A DNA stretch of 64,000 nucleotides, taken from contig NZ_AULM01000002.1 of NCBI RefSeq assembly GCF_000422285.1, positions 248,001 through 312,000 on the forward strand, given 5' to 3'. The notes below the pieces were generated by a model, which was not told where the DNA came from, made no database searches, and saw only the letters and a program-made list of their open reading frames with translations. The stretch is from Desulfatiglans anilini DSM 4660. Its GTDB lineage: Bacteria > Desulfobacterota > DSM-4660 > Desulfatiglandales > Desulfatiglandaceae. The position numbers and the translations under genes were made by a program. This document shows positions 36,493-45,977 of the stretch, in pieces. Positions within the stretch are counted from its first letter, which is position 1, and each line of letters starts with the position of its first letter.

Positions 36493-37707
36493 ATGGACGT
36501 CGGTGTGCTCATCGTTTTCGGACTGGTTTATGCGGGGATGATGCTCGGACGCGTGCCAGGCCTCGCCCTCGACCGGACAGGCATCGCGCTCCTCGGCGCC
36601 ATCGCTCTGCTGGCCATGGGGCGCCTGGATGCGCAGCAGGCCTGGGATGCCGTGGATGTTCCGACCATCTCGCTCCTTCTGGGGCTCATGGTGGTGTCCG
36701 CGCAGTTCCGGCTGGGGGGTTTTTACGCCCACGTGACGCGCCGTCTTTCAGCAATGACGATCGGTCCGGGTCTCTTCCTCGGCGGCGTGATCGGACTGTC
36801 CGGCATCCTTTCGGCGCTCCTCGCGAACGACATCGTCTGCCTGGCCATGACCCCGGTCCTGGTGGAAGGCTGCGGACGCCGGCAGTGGGACCCGGTGCCT
36901 TTCCTGCTGGCGCTTGCCTGCGCCGCCAATGTCGGGTCGGCGGCGACCCTCATCGGAAATCCGCAGAACATGCTGATCGGGCAGTCGCTCGACCTTCCGT
37001 TTGGACGATACGCCCTGGACGCGGCGGTGCCTGTGGCCCTCGGACTGGTCAGCGTGTGGCTGGTGATCGCCTGGATTTACAGGGGACGGTGGGGGAAGCC
37101 CGGTGCATCGACCTGCGAAGCGGGGGCCCCTCCTTTCAGCCTTTGGCAGACGGTCAAAGGCCTGGGCGTGCTCGGCTGCCTGGTGACGGCCTTCCTTCTG
37201 GCCGTGTGGCCCCGGGATGTCATGGCCCTCGCTGCGGCCGGCGTCCTTCTCACCAGCCGGCACATGGCCTCGCGCAAAGTCCTCGCCCTGGTGGACTGGC
37301 AGTTGCTGGTGCTCTTCGCCGGACTGTTCGTGGTGAACGCCGCCTTCCAGTCATCCGGTCTGCTCGGCGGCCTGCTCCGGTTCCTGGAAGGGGCCGGCAT
37401 CGATCCGTCACAGCCTGCCTGGCTCTTCGGCATCACCGTCGTCCTGTCGAACCTGGTGTCGAACGTCCCGGCGACGATGCTTCTCCTCCCCGTCGCCACC
37501 CATCCCCAGGCGGGCCTCATCCTCGCGCTCAGCAGCACGCTGGCGGGCAACCTGATTCTGGTGGGGAGCATTGCGAACCTGATCGTCGTAGGACAGGCCG
37601 AGCAGTGCGGCGTCCGGATCTCCTGGTGGGCGCACGCCCGGATCGGCGTCCCGGTGACCCTCTTGACGCTCGGCATCAGCGCTGTGTGGCTTTGGACGGG
37701 CGCGTAG
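36493..37707 (+). CDS. SLC13/ArsB-superfamily anion permease
   Basis: 404 aa with about ten to eleven hydrophobic segments. Motifs of the ion-transporter superfamily are seen twice, reflecting its inverted repeat: LSGILSALLANDIVCLAMTP with AANVGSAATLIGNPQNMLIG in the first half, and VVLSNLVSNVPATMLLLPVA with TLAGNLILVGSIANLIV in the second. It should carry an inorganic or carboxylate anion across the inner membrane. It sits 130 nt upstream of the threonine-synthase-like gene on the same strand, so it may supply or export a substrate of the cluster that follows. Ribosome site GAGGGTGGA is some distance from the ATG. Confidence 0.83.
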   Translation: MDVGVLIVFGLVYAGMMLGRVPGLALDRTGIALLGAIALLAMGRLDAQQAWDAVDVPTISLLLGLMVVSAQFRLGGFYAHVTRRLSAMTIGPGLFLGGVIGLSGILSALLANDIVCLAMTPVLVEGCGRRQWDPVPFLLALACAANVGSAATLIGNPQNMLIGQSLDLPFGRYALDAAVPVALGLVSVWLVIAWIYRGRWGKPGASTCEAGAPPFSLWQTVKGLGVLGCLVTAFLLAVWPRDVMALAAAGVLLTSRHMASRKVLALVDWQLLVLFAGLFVVNAAFQSSGLLGGLLRFLEGAGIDPSQPAWLFGITVVLSNLVSNVPATMLLLPVATHPQAGLILALSSTLAGNLILVGSIANLIVVGQAEQCGVRISWWAHARIGVPVTLLTLGISAVWLWTGA

Positions 37708-37837: not shown

Positions 37838-38923
37838 ATGAATGAAGACTTGAAACCGGAGTTTTTCCTCCTTGACGGGGCGACGCCCCAGTCACCGATC
37901 ATCCCCCCGGAACTCGACGTCCAGACAAGGATCGCCTCCGATCACGGCCGCCCGCTGCCGGATCGCCTCGAGGCCTTCGAAGACATCATGGACAGCGAGA
38001 TCGGTGACACCAACCTTTCGAGGGCGCGCAACATCGAACGGGAGTACGGGCTGCGTCAGATCTACCTCAAGTTCGAGGGGGGCAATCCCACCGGCACCCA
38101 GAAGGACCGGATCGCCTTCGCCCAGGCGATGGATGCGCTTCGCAGACGGTTCGAGATCATTACAACGGCCACCTGCGGCAACTACGGCGTCGCCACAGCG
38201 CTGGCGGCCTCGGTGGTCGGCGTAGGCTGCATCGTCTATATCCCCGAGGGTTATCACACCGGCAGAGTAAAAGAGATGGTCGACCACGGCGCCGAAATCG
38301 TCCGGGTGCCCGGGGACTACGAGGCGGCGGTCATGGCCTCGCGCCGCTTCGCCGAGGGGGACGACATCTATGACGCCAACCCGGGCGGGGCCAACTCGGG
38401 GCTCCAGATGCGGGCGTACGGGGAGATCGCCTACGAGATCTACGACGAGCTGCGCGACGCGCCGGCCGCCGTTGCTGTGCCTGTGTCGAACGGCACGACC
38501 CTGGCCGGGATCTACCGCGGGTTTCTGAGCCTTTACCGCCGGGGGAAGACCTCGCGGATGCCCCGGATGGTGGCGGGTTCATCGTTCGGGAAGAACCCGA
38601 TCGTCAAGGCCTATATGAAAAACACGCCGGGATGCGAAGACCTCGCGCCCGCGCGGATCCGCGAGACGGCGGTGAACGAGCCGCTCATCAACTGGCACGC
38701 GATCGACGGGGACGAGGCGCTTTTGGCCGTCCGGAAGACGGGGGGGTGGGCCGGCTACGCGAGCGACCGCGGGATGACCTCCTGCTCCGGCCTCCTGCGG
38801 CGGCGGGAGGGATTGAATGTCCTGCCGGCCTCCACGGTCGGGTTGATCGTTCTTCTGGACCGCCACCAGAAGACGAAACTGCCGGGGGACCGCTACGTGG
38901 TCATTCTGACGGGGAGAAAATGA
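37838..38923 (+). CDS. Threonine-synthase-like PLP enzyme
   Basis: 361 aa, fold-type II PLP enzyme. Seen: the PLP lysine K89 in GGNPTGTQKDR, the substrate-loop TATCGNYGVATALAASVVG, and VSNGTTLAGIYRGF. It resembles threonine synthases, but it is shorter than standard ThrC and its product is not certain; cysteate- or diaminopropionate-forming relatives exist. It overlaps the next gene (DUF1611) by ATGA, so the two are coupled. I infer that it makes or breaks an amino acid used by the epimerase/creatininase genes downstream. Confidence 0.75.
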   Translation: MNEDLKPEFFLLDGATPQSPIIPPELDVQTRIASDHGRPLPDRLEAFEDIMDSEIGDTNLSRARNIEREYGLRQIYLKFEGGNPTGTQKDRIAFAQAMDALRRRFEIITTATCGNYGVATALAASVVGVGCIVYIPEGYHTGRVKEMVDHGAEIVRVPGDYEAAVMASRRFAEGDDIYDANPGGANSGLQMRAYGEIAYEIYDELRDAPAAVAVPVSNGTTLAGIYRGFLSLYRRGKTSRMPRMVAGSSFGKNPIVKAYMKNTPGCEDLAPARIRETAVNEPLINWHAIDGDEALLAVRKTGGWAGYASDRGMTSCSGLLRRREGLNVLPASTVGLIVLLDRHQKTKLPGDRYVVILTGRK

Positions 38924-40075: not shown

Positions 40076-42505
40076 GTGACCCGCAACAACCGAAACCTTT
40101 CAGGCACGGAGCAGGGCGCCCGGATCGGCGACAAAAACGATTCCGGGCGGGGCGGCACCCTCGATGATCTGAAGGCGATCGAACGGCTGGAGATCGGACC
40201 TGTGCGCATCGAGCCTCGCCGGGTCAGCGCCCCTTACAGGGTGGTGCGCGAGAGTGGGGAAGAGACGAACGAGCTGATCTACCGTTTTGAAGAGGACGTC
40301 TTCGAGAAGAATGAAGCCGCCTCCCTGAACCTGGGAAGCGTCATGTGCGCTCAGGTGGCCCTGAACTACGGGCTGTTCTGCGGAGAAATCGTCTTCAACG
40401 GCTGGTACGACGATCACGACCGGCGGTTTCTCCAGCGTATGTGCGCCAACACGGCGCGGGAGATCTATGTCAAGAAGCTGCTCGAGCCGAACCCGTTCCT
40501 GACCGGCGCGGCCGCCCGGATGGGGGTCGAAAGACGAGAGGATTACGGGCAGGCGGTTCTGCGTTTCGAGACGCCGCCGGCGGGCCACGCCCCAGAGAGT
40601 CGATCGCAGGCGCGTCCGCCCTGGAAGGTCAGCCCCGGCAGGCACCTGGTGCTCTCGAGCGGCGGGAAGGACAGCCTGCTCAGCTACGGTCTGCTCAAGG
40701 AGATCGGCTGCGAAGTCCACCCCGTCTTCGTGAACGAGTCGGGGAGGCATTGGTTTACGGCGCTCAACGCCTACCGGTATTTCGCCGCCGGGGTCCCGTC
40801 GACGGCCAGGGTGTGGACCAACGCCGATCGGATCTTCAACTGGATGCTGCGCCATCTGCCTTTCGTGCGGCCCGATTTTGCGGATATCCGCTCCGATGCT
40901 TATCCGATCCGCCTCTGGACCGTGGCGGTCTTCCTGTTCGGGGTTCTTCCCCTGGCGCGAAAACGCGGCATCGGCCGGATCGTCGTCGGGGACGAGTTCG
41001 ACACGACGAGGCGCTACAGCCACCGCGGCATCACCCACTACGACGGCCTTTACGACCAGAGCCGCTGGTTCGACAACGCGCTGACCCGCTACTATCACCG
41101 CAAGGGCTGGGGCCTTTGCCAGTTCTCCATTCTGCGTCCGCTCTCGGAGATCCTGATCCAGAAGACCCTGCTCGAGCGTTACCCGGAGCTGCAGGCCCGT
41201 CAAGTCTCCTGCCATGCGGCGCACAAGGACGGCGACCGGGTCCGCCCGTGCGGCCGCTGCGAGAAGTGCCGGCGGATCGTGGGCATGATCGAGGCTGTTG
41301 GCGGTGATCCGCATCGCTGCGGCTACACGGACGAGCAGGTGGCCTTCTGCCTGAAGGCCCTGGCGGAAAAGGGCGCCCACCAGGAGAGCGCCGGCGTGCA
41401 GCATCTGCTCTACCTGCTGCGCCGGAAGGGACACGAAGGCATCGCCCACCCATCCGGGCTGCACGTCAGGCCCCGCCCGGAGGTGATGAAGATCCGCTTG
41501 GACCCGGAACGGTCGCCCCCGGAGGAGATCCCGAGGGATCTGCGGCTGCCGCTTTTCACGATCTACGGGGCGCATGCGGACGGAGCCGTGAAACGCAACG
41601 GCCGGCTGTGGATCCCCATCGACCCGATGAGCGATCCGGTCCTGTCGAGGCCTTATCCCTTCGAGCCGCCGAATCGCTCTGCGGCGGATGGCGCTGTGTC
41701 CGGCGGGGGGAGCGGCGATCCATCGAAGAGTTTCCTGCTGGGAGACCTGACCTGGCCGGAGGCGAAGAAACGCTTCCGTGAGGTGGATGTGGCGCTGCTG
41801 CCCGTCGGGGCCATCGAACAGCACGGGCCGCATCTCCCCCTGGACACGGATGCCTTCGACGCGGAATACCTGACCCGCCAGGTGGCGCTCGGCTGCTCCG
41901 AACCGAGGCCGGTCGTCCTCCCCCTGATCCCGTACGGCGTCTCTTATCACCACGACGATTTCAGCGGCACCATCGGGGTCAGCCCCGACAGCCTTTCGCG
42001 GGTGGTTTACGACGTCGGCATGAGCGCGGCCCGCAACGGCGTCACCAAACTGGTGATCATCAACGGCCACGGGGGCAATATCCCGGCGCTCCATTTCGCG
42101 GCGCAGATGATCAACCGCGATGCGCACATCTTCACGTGCGTCGACACGGGCGAGAGCAGCGACGCGGACATCGAGGCCATCGCCGAGACCCCGAACGACG
42201 TCCACGCCGGAGAAATCGAGACCAGCACCTCCCTGGCGGTGCGTCCGGAAGGGGTGCGGATGCAGGCGGCCAGGAAGTTCGTTCCCCGTTTTTCGAGCCG
42301 CTACCTGGATTTTTCGTCCAAGCGCGGGGTGGGGTGGTATGCCCACACGGCGAAGCTTTCCCGCTCCGGTGTCCTGGGGGATCCGACCAGGGCGACGGCT
42401 GAAAAGGGGCGGCGGATGTGGGAGCAGATGATCCGGAACCTGGTGGAGTTCGTCGAGCACCTGAAGGGCCTGACCTTGGACGAACTCTACCAGAGGCGCT
42501 ACTGA
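40076..42505 (+). CDS. MurL-like PP-loop domain fused to a creatininase domain
   Basis: 809 aa, two domains. Residues about 40-430 hold a PP-loop ATPase: SSGGKDS (194-200), FSILRPLSE (350-358) and SCH...CGRCEKC (C392/C395/C398). From memory this trio matches MurL, the ATP-dependent epimerase of UDP-MurNAc-L-Ala-L-Glu, or at least its PP-loop relatives. A Gly/Ser-rich linker (about 530-551) leads to a complete creatininase-family amidohydrolase: [16 protein letters not shown] (577-592), [18 protein letters not shown] and [10 protein letters not shown] supply the usual metal ligands. Creatininase-fold enzymes open cyclic or linear amides. The GTG start has GAGG about 10 nt upstream; an ATG further in would cut the conserved N-terminus. 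The frame is unbroken, with no sign of an internal stop or frameshift. The epimerase gene begins 5 nt after the stop. Confidence 0.8.
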
Positions 42506-42510
42506 CGGCC

Positions 42511-43581
42511 GTGAGAATCGCGTCCATAGAGGCGTGGCCCGTCCACATGGACCTGGCGGAGCCTTACACGATCGCCTACGAGCGGGTCGAGTCGACGACG
42601 AACATCCTGCTGAGGGTCGAGACCGACCAGGGGATTACAGGCTGGGGCTGCGCCGCGCCGGACCTGCACGTGACAGGCGAATCCGCGGAGACGGCCCTCC
42701 GGGCGATCGACGATCTCGCTGCGCCGGTTCTGCGGGGTGCGGACCCCTTGAGGCCGGCGTTGGTGATGACGCGTTTGCGGCGGCGGATCACTGGCATGCC
42801 CTCCGTTCTTGCCGCGGTGGACATGGCCCTGTATGATGTCCTCGGGAAGCGGTGCCGGCTCCCGCTGTGGCGCCTCCTGGGCGGGTACCGTAGCCGGATG
42901 AAGACCAGCGTGACCATCGGGATCATGCCGCCCGCCGAGACGCTCCTCGCCGCCCGGGATTTGACGGCGCGCGGGTTTAGGAGCATCAAGATCAAGGGCG
43001 GGCTGGACGTCGAAGGCGATATCGAACGGGTCTGGAGGGTTCGTGAGGCGGTCGGGAAAGGGACCGAACTGCGCTTCGATGCGAACCAGGGGTTTACGGT
43101 GGAGCAGTCGCTCAGGTTCGTCGAGCGGACCCGGGCGGCCCGCCTCTCGCTCATCGAGCAGCCGACCCCGAGAGGCGAGCCGCAGATGCTCGCACGCGTG
43201 ACCAGCCGCGCCGCGATTCCCGTCATGGCGGACGAGAGCCTGACGAGCCTGCGGGACGCCTTCCGGATCGCCCGAGGCGGTCTGGCCGACATGGTGAACA
43301 TCAAGTTGATGAAGGTCGGGGGCATCTCGGAGGCTCTGCAGATCGACGCCGTGGCGCACTCCGCCGGCCTCGAGGCGATGGTCGGCTGCCTGGACGAGGC
43401 GGCCCTGGGCATTGCCGCGGGGCTTCATTTCGCGTTGGCGCGGCCCAACGTGATCTATGCCGACCTCGACGGCCATCTGGGGCTCCTGGATGACCCAACG
43501 GCGGGGGCGGTCCGCTTGCGGGGCGGATTCCTCTACCCGAATCCGGAGCCGGGTCTGGGATTCAACGTGACGGGTCGATAG
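42511..43581 (+). CDS. Dipeptide epimerase (enolase superfamily)
   Basis: 356 aa from the GTG at 42511. The barrel carries all the catalytic signatures of the muconate-lactonizing subgroup: K160-x-K162 (SIKIKGG), D190-x-N192 (FDANQGF), E216 (IEQPTP), D241-E242-S243 (MADES) and K265/K268 (NIKLMKVGG). Near the C-terminus ADLDG gives the D318-x-D320 pair that in L-Ala-D/L-Glu epimerases binds the dipeptide amino group. So a dipeptide epimerase is more likely than a simple N-acyl amino-acid racemase. It is 5 nt after the MurL-creatininase fusion and 14 nt before an mscS gene. Confidence 0.85.
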
Positions 43582-43595
43582 GAAGGTGGCGGGGT

Positions 43596-45977
43596 GTGAT
43601 ATCTTATAGGAGAATTTTTCCCCTGCTTGTGATGGTGCCGGCCTTGTGGGTGCTCGCGGGGTTTGCGGCCTTGCCCGCCCCGGCGGCGTCCGCCGATACC
43701 GCCGATCCGTATCCTTCGCGGGTCTCCCGCCAGGATATGGAGCGGATGGTCGAACTGTTGGAAGACCCGGCCAGGCGCGAGACGTTCGTCCAGGATCTAA
43801 AGACCCTGCTCGAGCTCGAGGGGGAGCGGAAAAAGGGAGTGACCCCAGAAGGACGGGCACGGGAATCGGAGGGGGAGGAAGAGCTCGCTTTTCTGGATCG
43901 GGCGGCGGCAAGGTTCGAATCGATTTCCACGCACATCATACGGGCTACAGAGGCGGCCTGGGGCCTTTTCGTCCGCACACCCGAGGCGCTGCACGAAACC
44001 CTCGCCCTTGTGCGTCATTCGGAAAGCCGGAAGGGCCTCGCCGTTCTTGCGGGTCACGTTCTGGCGGCGGTTTTTCTGGCCCTGCTCGTTCGCTGGGCGC
44101 TGAACGGCGTCCTAAACCGGACCAGAGAGGGGATGATCCGGAATCCAGGGCATCTTCATCTCGCCCTTGCGAGGGTGTTCGTATCGGGCCTGCCATGCGT
44201 GATGCTCCTGCTTGGTCTTTTCCTGCTTTTCCGATGGATGCCCTCTCTCCCTCGGGTTCAGCTGTTTATCCTCTTCTTTTTCACGGTTCTGATCGGCTAC
44301 CGATGGACGGTGGAACTGCTGAGGGTCTTCCTCGGGCCGGATCCGGATTTGCCCCGCATCCTGAGGATTTCGGACGAGGATGCCAACTATGCCTGGCTTT
44401 GGGGGATGCGGCTGGTTCGGTACGCCTTTTTTTACATCGTTCTGACCCAGTTTCTCCGTTTGCTGAGGATCCCAGCCGATGCCTATGCCTTTATCCGCGG
44501 CGCGCTCCTCCTGGGGTTCCCGGTCATGCTCAGCTCTTTCATCCTTCAGGTTGCGGCCGAAATCCAGACGCGCCTCGGGAAAAGAACGGCCGGCACGGCA
44601 GATCCCGAACCGGTGCTGCACCGGGGCCTCCGCCTGGCGACCCGTTACGGGCGGCTCCTGTTGATTGGATATGTGTGGGCGTTTTTCCTTTTTTTGATCC
44701 TGCACCTCGATGAGGCCTTTTCTTACCTTCTGGCGGCCACGCTCAAGACGGGCGTGGCTGGGGTGTGCCTCTGGCTGGCGTTTCGGGTGCTCGACGGATT
44801 CTTCGGGGCCCTGTTTCATGTCGAGGAGGCCATCAAGACCAGATTTCCGGGGCTCGAAGCAAAGGCGAACCGCTATATCCACCTCTTCCGGAAGGGCCTG
44901 AACGGTGTCCTGGTGATCATGGCCCTAGGGGTCGCAGGGCAGGTATGGGGGGTGCCGGTTCGGGATCTGGTCCTGTCGGACACCGGCTCCATGCTGATCT
45001 GGAGGGGATTCGGCATGGTGCTGACGGTTGCGCTCGCCCTGGTCGTGCTGGAGATCTGCCGGTTCTTGCGCAGGTATCTGCTCAGTGAGGACACTCAGAA
45101 GTGGTTCCAGGTGACCCAGAAGACCAGAACCTTGATCCCCATGCTGCATGCAGGGATCAAGGTGGGCGTCTGGTTCGTGGCGGGGGTGATCGTGCTGGAT
45201 CGTCTGGGGGTGAGCGTCGGCCCGATCCTTGCCGGGGCGGGCATCTTCGGGCTGGCCATCGGATTCGGATCCCAGACCCTCGTTAAAGACCTGATCAACG
45301 GGCTTTTCATCCTCTTCGAGGACAGCATTCGGGTGGGGGACTGGATCAGTCTGGGAGACAAGGGGGGAAACGTCGAGGCCGTCAGCATCCGGACCATCCG
45401 GCTGCGTGATTTGCACGGCAATGTCCACGTCATTCCCAACAGCTCCGTCAATGTACTGACCAATCTGAGCAAGGAGTATTCTCGGGCGGTGATGGATGTC
45501 GGGGTGGCCTATCGTGAGGATGTCGACGAGGTCATGGAGATCCTGAAGGAGATCGGCGCGGAGATGTGTCAGGACCCCGACTACGCCTCGGACATCCTGG
45601 AGCCGTTGGAGGTCTTCGGGCTGGATCGCTTCGAGGACTCGGCGGTGGTGATCCGCGCCCGATTCACTACACGGCCACTCAAACAGTGGGGTATCCGCAG
45701 AGAATTCAATCGCCGGTTGAAGCGCGTCTTCGATGCCCGTGGGATCGAGATTCCGTTTCCGCATCGAACGCTGTACATGGGCGCCCTGAAGGATGGCGAG
45801 GCTCCTCCCCTGTTTTTGAAGATGAAGACGGATGGTGGCGGCGATTCGGGCGCCGTCGATGGGGCGGCCGAGCGAAAGCAAGAACAGACCGGTGCATCGA
45901 TGGATGGGAGCGGCCGTACCAGCGAGACTGGCCGGCCCACGGACTCTGCGCCGGTCGAGAATCATTCTGTGAGGTGA
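43596..45977 (+). CDS. Large MscS-family mechanosensitive channel
   Basis: 793 aa. A signal-like N-terminus (LLVMVPALWVLAGFAALPAPAASA) leads into a charged periplasmic segment, then about ten membrane helices. The pore-lining helix and beta domain of MscS follow at roughly 530-680: AGAGIFGLAIGFGSQTLVKD, GLFILFEDSIRVGDWI, and VHVIPNSS. The tail is hydrophilic and low-complexity. This size and layout fit YbiO/MscK-like channels that release solutes on osmotic downshock. The GTG start follows GGAAGGTGG. It sits 14 nt after the epimerase gene and 9 nt before the histidine kinase, so all may share transcription. Confidence 0.88.
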   Translation: MISYRRIFPLLVMVPALWVLAGFAALPAPAASADTADPYPSRVSRQDMERMVELLEDPARRETFVQDLKTLLELEGERKKGVTPEGRARESEGEEELAFLDRAAARFESISTHIIRATEAAWGLFVRTPEALHETLALVRHSESRKGLAVLAGHVLAAVFLALLVRWALNGVLNRTREGMIRNPGHLHLALARVFVSGLPCVMLLLGLFLLFRWMPSLPRVQLFILFFFTVLIGYRWTVELLRVFLGPDPDLPRILRISDEDANYAWLWGMRLVRYAFFYIVLTQFLRLLRIPADAYAFIRGALLLGFPVMLSSFILQVAAEIQTRLGKRTAGTADPEPVLHRGLRLATRYGRLLLIGYVWAFFLFLILHLDEAFSYLLAATLKTGVAGVCLWLAFRVLDGFFGALFHVEEAIKTRFPGLEAKANRYIHLFRKGLNGVLVIMALGVAGQVWGVPVRDLVLSDTGSMLIWRGFGMVLTVALALVVLEICRFLRRYLLSEDTQKWFQVTQKTRTLIPMLHAGIKVGVWFVAGVIVLDRLGVSVGPILAGAGIFGLAIGFGSQTLVKDLINGLFILFEDSIRVGDWISLGDKGGNVEAVSIRTIRLRDLHGNVHVIPNSSVNVLTNLSKEYSRAVMDVGVAYREDVDEVMEILKEIGAEMCQDPDYASDILEPLEVFGLDRFEDSAVVIRARFTTRPLKQWGIRREFNRRLKRVFDARGIEIPFPHRTLYMGALKDGEAPPLFLKMKTDGGGDSGAVDGAAERKQEQTGASMDGSGRTSETGRPTDSAPVENHSVR

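Follow-up and report, generated by a model that had tools for sequence, protein, structure and literature searches.

Does the long open reading frame at this locus of Desulfatiglans anilini DSM 4660 encode a genuine fusion of a PP-loop domain with a creatininase, and if so, what might an ATP-using activating domain and a metal amidohydrolase do in a single polypeptide? A first-pass annotation of the window (the whole stretch of 64,000 nucleotides that was analysed) had described an intact 2430-bp frame encoding a MurL-type PP-loop domain, a flexible Gly/Ser linker and a full creatininase domain with all its ligands, and had suggested that an adenylate or an epimerised peptide could pass straight to hydrolysis. 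The frame is indeed open over 809 codons, and its conservation starts near residue 31 (the start codon of the 809-codon frame is uncertain). The SSGGKDS and FSILRPLSE motifs lie where they had been placed (residues 194–200 and 350–358, respectively), and CGRCEKC is present but occupies residues 392–398 rather than 391–398, residue 391 being the preceding proline. The linker is also found as described (Table 1). The antisense strand of the fusion gene contains a 786-aa open reading frame, which we take as a GC-rich shadow frame.

Table 1. Coordinates in the window of the fusion gene, its parts and the genes around it, with the loci that carry two recurrent types of membrane-protein neighbour.
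Feature	Coordinates or loci	Strand	Basis
PLP-dependent, threonine-synthase-like enzyme (PALP, PRK06381)	37838..38923	+	PF00291, NF004996
DUF1611 protein, DgcN-like, Walker-A P-loop	38920..40002	+	PF07755 209 bits, PF17396 75 bits
Fusion protein	40076..42505	+	809 aa, stop-free frame (translation)
N-terminal QueC/QatC/MurL-like PP-loop domain, about residues 31–530	40166..41665	+	AF2 and MurL profile
PP-loop SSGGKDS, residues 194–200	40655..40675	+	Alignment of 85 sequences
Four-cysteine motif C-x12-C-G-x-C-x2-C, residues 379–398, putative zinc site	41210..41269	+	Alignment
Gly/Ser linker, about residues 532–549	41669..41722	+	AF2 pLDDT <50 over most of it
C-terminal creatininase domain, residues 550–809	41723..42502	+	PF02633, fold match, ligands
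Enolase-superfamily (MR/MLE), dipeptide-epimerase-like enzyme	42511..43581	+	PDB matches; GTG start assumed
MscS-type mechanosensitive channel	43596..45977	+	PF00924 and others
DUF5698-type neighbour (with or without recognised DUF2179)	L008, L014, L016, L020, L037, L039, L045, L061		
YitT-type neighbour (YitT with DUF2179)	L007, L009, L013, L027, L047, L053		

A sequencing or assembly deletion that joined two genes is ruled out, because dozens of independent genomes carry the same fusion in one frame. Among 61 genomes it is found in five, that of D. anilini itself and four others of its family, whose proteins are 54–96% identical to that of the window. A collection-wide scan recovered 122 stretches encoding a relative, and in the best 80 of these loci both domains lie in a single frame in 68. 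Three loci (L038, L068 and L084) have the domains as adjacent separate genes, each with its own start codon and two of them with clear ribosome-binding sites, and these lineages thus supply the Rosetta-stone pattern of split versions side by side. Seven more have a PP-loop gene but lack a creatininase, both within that frame and in the examined stretch; the status of L079, fused or split, is ambiguous, and the contig of L076 ends too early for that locus to be classed. The L045 genome has a creatininase (72% identity) adjoining an epimerase (62%) at 610 kb and its PP-loop gene near 1.12 Mb, and in the L077 genome the creatininase and epimerase lie together on a different contig from the PP-loop gene. 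A search of four of the genomes behind these seven loci (G102, G106, G108 and G110) for a close creatininase relative found none. In a tree that is a quick version with many forks open, fused forms dominate throughout and split forms occur sporadically, a pattern suggestive of an old fusion that later underwent fissions. We conclude that the fusion is authentic, old and functionally linked, within an uncharacterised pathway.

By record titles the carriers span about 13 phyla (Thermodesulfobacteriota, Acidobacteriota, Gemmatimonadota, Planctomycetota, Bacteroidota, Ignavibacteriota, Latescibacterota, Zixibacteriota, Krumholzibacteriota, Calditrichota, Fibrobacterota, Aminicenantes and Spirochaetota); most are MAGs, and complete Desulfosarcina genomes are included. 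In the home phylum the distribution is rare and patchy, with the fusion family in four of 297 sampled genomes and a distant relative in one more. A plasmid or phage origin is rejected, the plasmids and viral contigs searched having yielded no close relative of the fusion. A hypothetical protein of Xanthomonas phage phiXF1 (L091, 2362–3666, + strand) is distant kin of the C-terminal half of the PP-loop domain, in an alignment of 134 columns.

The C-terminal domain is a complete creatininase, as had been claimed. Residues 557–793 match PF02633 from profile position 2 to 238 of 238 with 234 bits (cut-off 31), the residues expected at the metal site (E581, H583, D592, H665 and E713/E715) show little or no variation among 72 relatives, and the structural match to creatininase 1q3k has a TMt of 0.80. 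Whereas domain, ligands and fold place it in the creatininase/MftE family, it differs from creatininase and MftE proper in its position at the C-terminus of a PP-loop protein and in scoring below both NCBIfam equivalog cut-offs (98 of 235 bits for creatininase and 154 of 172 for MftE).

The N-terminal domain is probably kin to MurL, but by its sequence scores it is not MurL itself, so that the claim of a MurL-like domain fused to a creatininase stands as to the fusion and a distant kinship and falls as to MurL proper. Of 41 members, 40 are hit by the MurL profile with E values of at most 0.01 (best E 1.4e-8), and the likeness to MurL (Xanthomonas XOO_1319) extends over the C-terminal half of the domain, with similar domain size and a shared FSxLRPLSE/CGxCxxC region. 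Kinship is probable because one protein (L116) matches both the profile of MurL and the fusion family over the span between the PP-loop region and the cysteine motif. Against MurL proper, the window protein reaches 22.3 bits (E 3.9e-5) on the MurL equivalog NF041275, far below the cut-off of 700, the nearest structures belong to other proteins, no Mur ligase adjoins the gene, and most cluster-bearing genomes keep a glutamate racemase. The fusion further differs from MurL in carrying a creatininase and in having no MurD2 partner, and its carriers often have MurI. A search of the home phylum for true MurL was negative. L116 itself (1207–2568, − strand) is a distant relative of 453 aa that stands alone, has SFGKDS and a cysteine motif, and adjoins an acetoacetyl-CoA-synthetase-like gene.

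Structure prediction places the N-terminal domain more closely. The AF2 model is confident (pLDDT 90, pTM 0.91) and has a PP-loop fold of the QatC/QueC type; the closest solved structures are QatC (Z 15.1, over 319 residues and with the N-terminal extension included), QueC (13.0) and Cap9 (12.5), with the next family at 9.8. Across 85 aligned sequences the S-G-G-K and the last S of the PP-loop are invariant, with Glu replacing Asp in nine, and so are the four cysteines of C-x12-CGxCxxC, a putative zinc site. The QueC hallmarks are an SGGxDS PP-loop and C(x)8CxxCxxC (PMC13329287), compared with which the fusion motif has a longer first spacer, x12. In predicted fold, PP-loop and four-cysteine motif the domain thus resembles QatC (of qatABCD), Cap9 (of type IV CBASS) and QueC, but it is 11–20% identical to them, has an amidohydrolase fused on, and lies in a cluster without queuosine or defence genes. 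The window protein has no match to PF06508 (canonical QueC) at E 0.001, the canonical QueC motifs VPxRN and YPDC are absent from the fusion sequence, and when the N-domain profile was searched against PDB sequences the best hits, around the PP-loop, were no better than E 0.1. We predict from the model a QueC/QatC-type PP-loop domain with a carboxylate-activating scaffold. In two ATP-dependent steps, QueC turns a carboxylate first into an amide and then into a nitrile (PMC13329287). MurL requires ATP and Mg and releases AMP, with adenylation proposed (PMC5808125, PMC8788868), although no known conserved domain was recognised in it and its mechanism was reported as unclear (PMC5808125). From the predicted fold and motifs, taken with the chemistry of QueC and MurL, we infer carboxylate adenylation as the most economical function; a shared fold alone does not prove it.

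The fusion gene is the third in a cluster of four, and the order PLP-dependent enzyme, DUF1611 protein, fusion and MR/MLE enzyme recurs in most of the best 80 of 122 loci; 48 loci, the window included, have all five domains at full or near-full length. The distance matrices of the five domains correlate with r between 0.47 and 0.69, values never reached in 500 permutations and to which shared ancestry contributes. The PLP-dependent enzyme scores 181.6 bits with PF00291 and 410 bits with NF004996 (cut-off 266), and it likely catalyses a reaction other than that of threonine synthase, because the genome has another ThrC over its cut-off. The DUF1611 gene overlaps the PLP-enzyme gene before it, and the pairing of a DUF1611 protein with an MR/MLE enzyme is like that of the DgcN–DgcA D-glutamate pathway. 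However, the two proteins reach only 149 of 480 bits (DgcN) and 151 of 400 bits (DgcA), below both NCBIfam equivalog cut-offs, and the cluster contains two further enzymes.

The flanks vary. The MscS gene starts 14 bases past the cluster in the window, its membership in the system being uncertain, and MscS genes lie near six of the 80 related loci, or seven with the window. Membrane proteins of the DUF2179/YitT type stand beside 14 of the 80 loci, where about 0.2 would be expected given how densely such genes occur in 15 carrier genomes; this background is rough, and only the locus count is set against it, since six of the genomes were picked for having a known DUF2179-type neighbour. Such a protein could serve the pathway as a transporter or sensor. 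To judge by sequence alone, the commonest neighbour family (15 loci) resembles the NtrC-type response regulators; a DHH-family phosphoesterase gene lies near the cluster in four loci (flanks of L006–L009). In the window, some 130 bases separate the cluster from the end of an upstream CitMHS/ArsB-like transporter gene (36493–37707, + strand), which is no recurrent neighbour at other loci.

The MR/MLE protein bears on the question of the substrate. Its best PDB matches are 3jva, 1jpm (YkfB) and 3rit, and the KxK motif, second lysine, three Mg ligands and DxD at strand 8 are kept in 57–58 of 58 relatives. These residues it has in common with the dipeptide epimerases (YkfB, 3jva and Methylococcus 3rit), and with 3rit it also shares GCxDE...DLDG; in such enzymes the DxD motif binds the dipeptide ammonium. 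It differs in having a glutamate (Glu28, in 56 of 58 relatives) at the position of YkfB Arg24, which reportedly binds the substrate gamma-carboxylate, and in the next specificity loop an aspartate (Asp55, in 57 of 58) where 3rit has Glu. These substitutions speak against glutamate at the epimerised position and in favour of a basic or polar residue there.

In the reading that we favour, and to which we give about an even chance of being right, the N-terminal half of the fusion adenylates a carboxylate and the creatininase half hydrolyses an amide, within an ATP-driven dipeptide or N-acyl-amino-acid pathway whose chemical steps and substrate class we infer. The QueC/MurL-type domain would use ATP at its PP-loop to adenylate a small substrate, either an N-acylated amino acid or a dipeptide, at a carboxylate, as fold and motifs suggest. 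The acyl-adenylate might then be epimerised and hydrolysed, as proposed for MurL, or be attacked by an amine to give an amide, as in QueC and Cap9. The creatininase domain, a predicted metal amidohydrolase, would cleave an amide in the same pathway, and the MR/MLE enzyme would epimerise, at the alpha-carbon, a dipeptide-like intermediate whose amino end is free, as the DxD motif implies, with the DUF1611 protein and the PLP enzyme supplying or trapping an intermediate. Overall, the pathway would spend ATP to make or turn over a dipeptide or amino acid that contains a D-residue or is modified in some other way. The epimerised position would probably be occupied by a cationic or polar residue and not by a glutamyl one, and a DUF2179/YitT-type membrane protein may transport or sense the compound in some lineages.

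Several observations speak for this reading: the 68 fused loci, the three adjacent splits and the one creatininase–epimerase pair away from its PP-loop gene; the constancy of the PALP, DUF1611 and MR/MLE neighbours; the predicted QatC/QueC/Cap9 fold, the PP-loop, the four-cysteine motif and the MurL profile matches, with L116 as a bridge; the conserved creatininase ligands; an epimerase closest to dipeptide epimerases, with its KxK and DxD motifs and Glu28 and Asp55; and the ATP use and AMP release of MurL. Hydrolysis is nevertheless not always tied to adenylation, or is done by another enzyme, since seven of the 80 loci have no adjoining creatininase and the search of four of those genomes found no close relative of it. 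Direct channelling of an adenylate or epimerised peptide to hydrolysis, as first suggested, does not look obligatory, because in those four genomes the PP-loop half occurs with no close creatininase relative found. Two potential epimerases in one pathway, the MurL-like domain and the MR/MLE enzyme, would be odd unless the PP-loop domain is a ligase or an amidase-type activator.

The kinship to MurL also raises the idea that the cluster is an alternative supply of D-glutamate for peptidoglycan, in which the MurL-like domain, with the epimerase, yields a D-Glu intermediate from which the creatininase frees D-Glu, replacing MurI. The genome of D. anilini (98.7% complete) and that of a one-contig congener have no MurI match (TIGR00067), a PF01177 search of the former found no match either, and the DUF1611 and MR/MLE pair resembles DgcN and DgcA, which act on D-Glu (PMC12363236, PMC10845958). 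But MurI is over its curated cut-off in 32 of 50 cluster-bearing genomes, two of the same family among them, and is missing over that cut-off in 36 of 56 relatives without the cluster, so there is no pattern of replacement. Moreover, the epimerase carries Glu at the position of YkfB Arg24, Mur ligases are not among the conserved neighbours, and none of the MurD2 type was recognised among the cluster genes and recurrent neighbours. A search for D-aminotransferase found class IV aminotransferases in all genomes and none over the cut-off. The MurI distribution therefore rules out D-Glu supply as the general role; the cluster may serve it in single lineages, and overall we consider this account quite improbable.

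A cyclase paired with a ring-opener is also unlikely, if slightly less so. PP-loop activation would close a lactam or imide and the creatininase would reopen the ring amide, giving an isomerised or epimerised, possibly osmolyte-type product; PP-loop synthetases such as beta-lactam synthetase do cyclise, creatininase itself hydrolyses a cyclic amide, the epimerase is predicted to prefer a cationic substrate, and MscS genes occur near seven loci with the window counted. The MscS link is weak, however, channel genes being common, and no cluster protein resembles known osmolyte synthases. The strongest of the alternatives, possible though still the lesser bet, is that the fusion merely co-regulates its halves, with a creatininase that has no catalytic link to the first domain and acts on different molecules of one pathway: the linker is flexible and poorly predicted, and the halves are encoded separately in three lineages and lie unlinked in one, against which stands the fact that most of the tree has long kept the fusion. 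A protein-modification or defence role, in which a QatC/Cap9-like domain modifies the N-terminus of a protein and the creatininase takes the modification off again, would accord with a nearest fold of QatC, then QueC and Cap9. It is very improbable, as the neighbours are amino-acid enzymes and no close relative lies in viral contigs or plasmids. A defence system of the qatABCD or CBASS kind is rejected, neither the fusion nor its three neighbours matching the PADLOC models at E 0.1.

Returning to the adenylation–hydrolysis reading, the analysis points to a compact, uncharacterised pathway common to about 13 phyla and probably building or reshaping a small peptide, with named isolates such as Desulfosarcina alkanivorans, D. 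widdelii and strain NaphS2 among its carriers. We propose tentatively, and with slightly less assurance than the reading itself, that the PLP enzyme, DUF1611 protein, fusion and epimerase, often with a DUF2179/YitT-type protein, form an undescribed, dispersed pathway to a new peptide-derived metabolite, and that MurL belongs to the QueC-type PP-loop superfamily. MurL would thereby gain a candidate fold and mechanism, a QueC-type PP-loop domain adenylating a carboxylate, and a metabolic branch would be added to the QueC superfamily, which has lately been discussed mainly for queuosine synthesis and phage defence.
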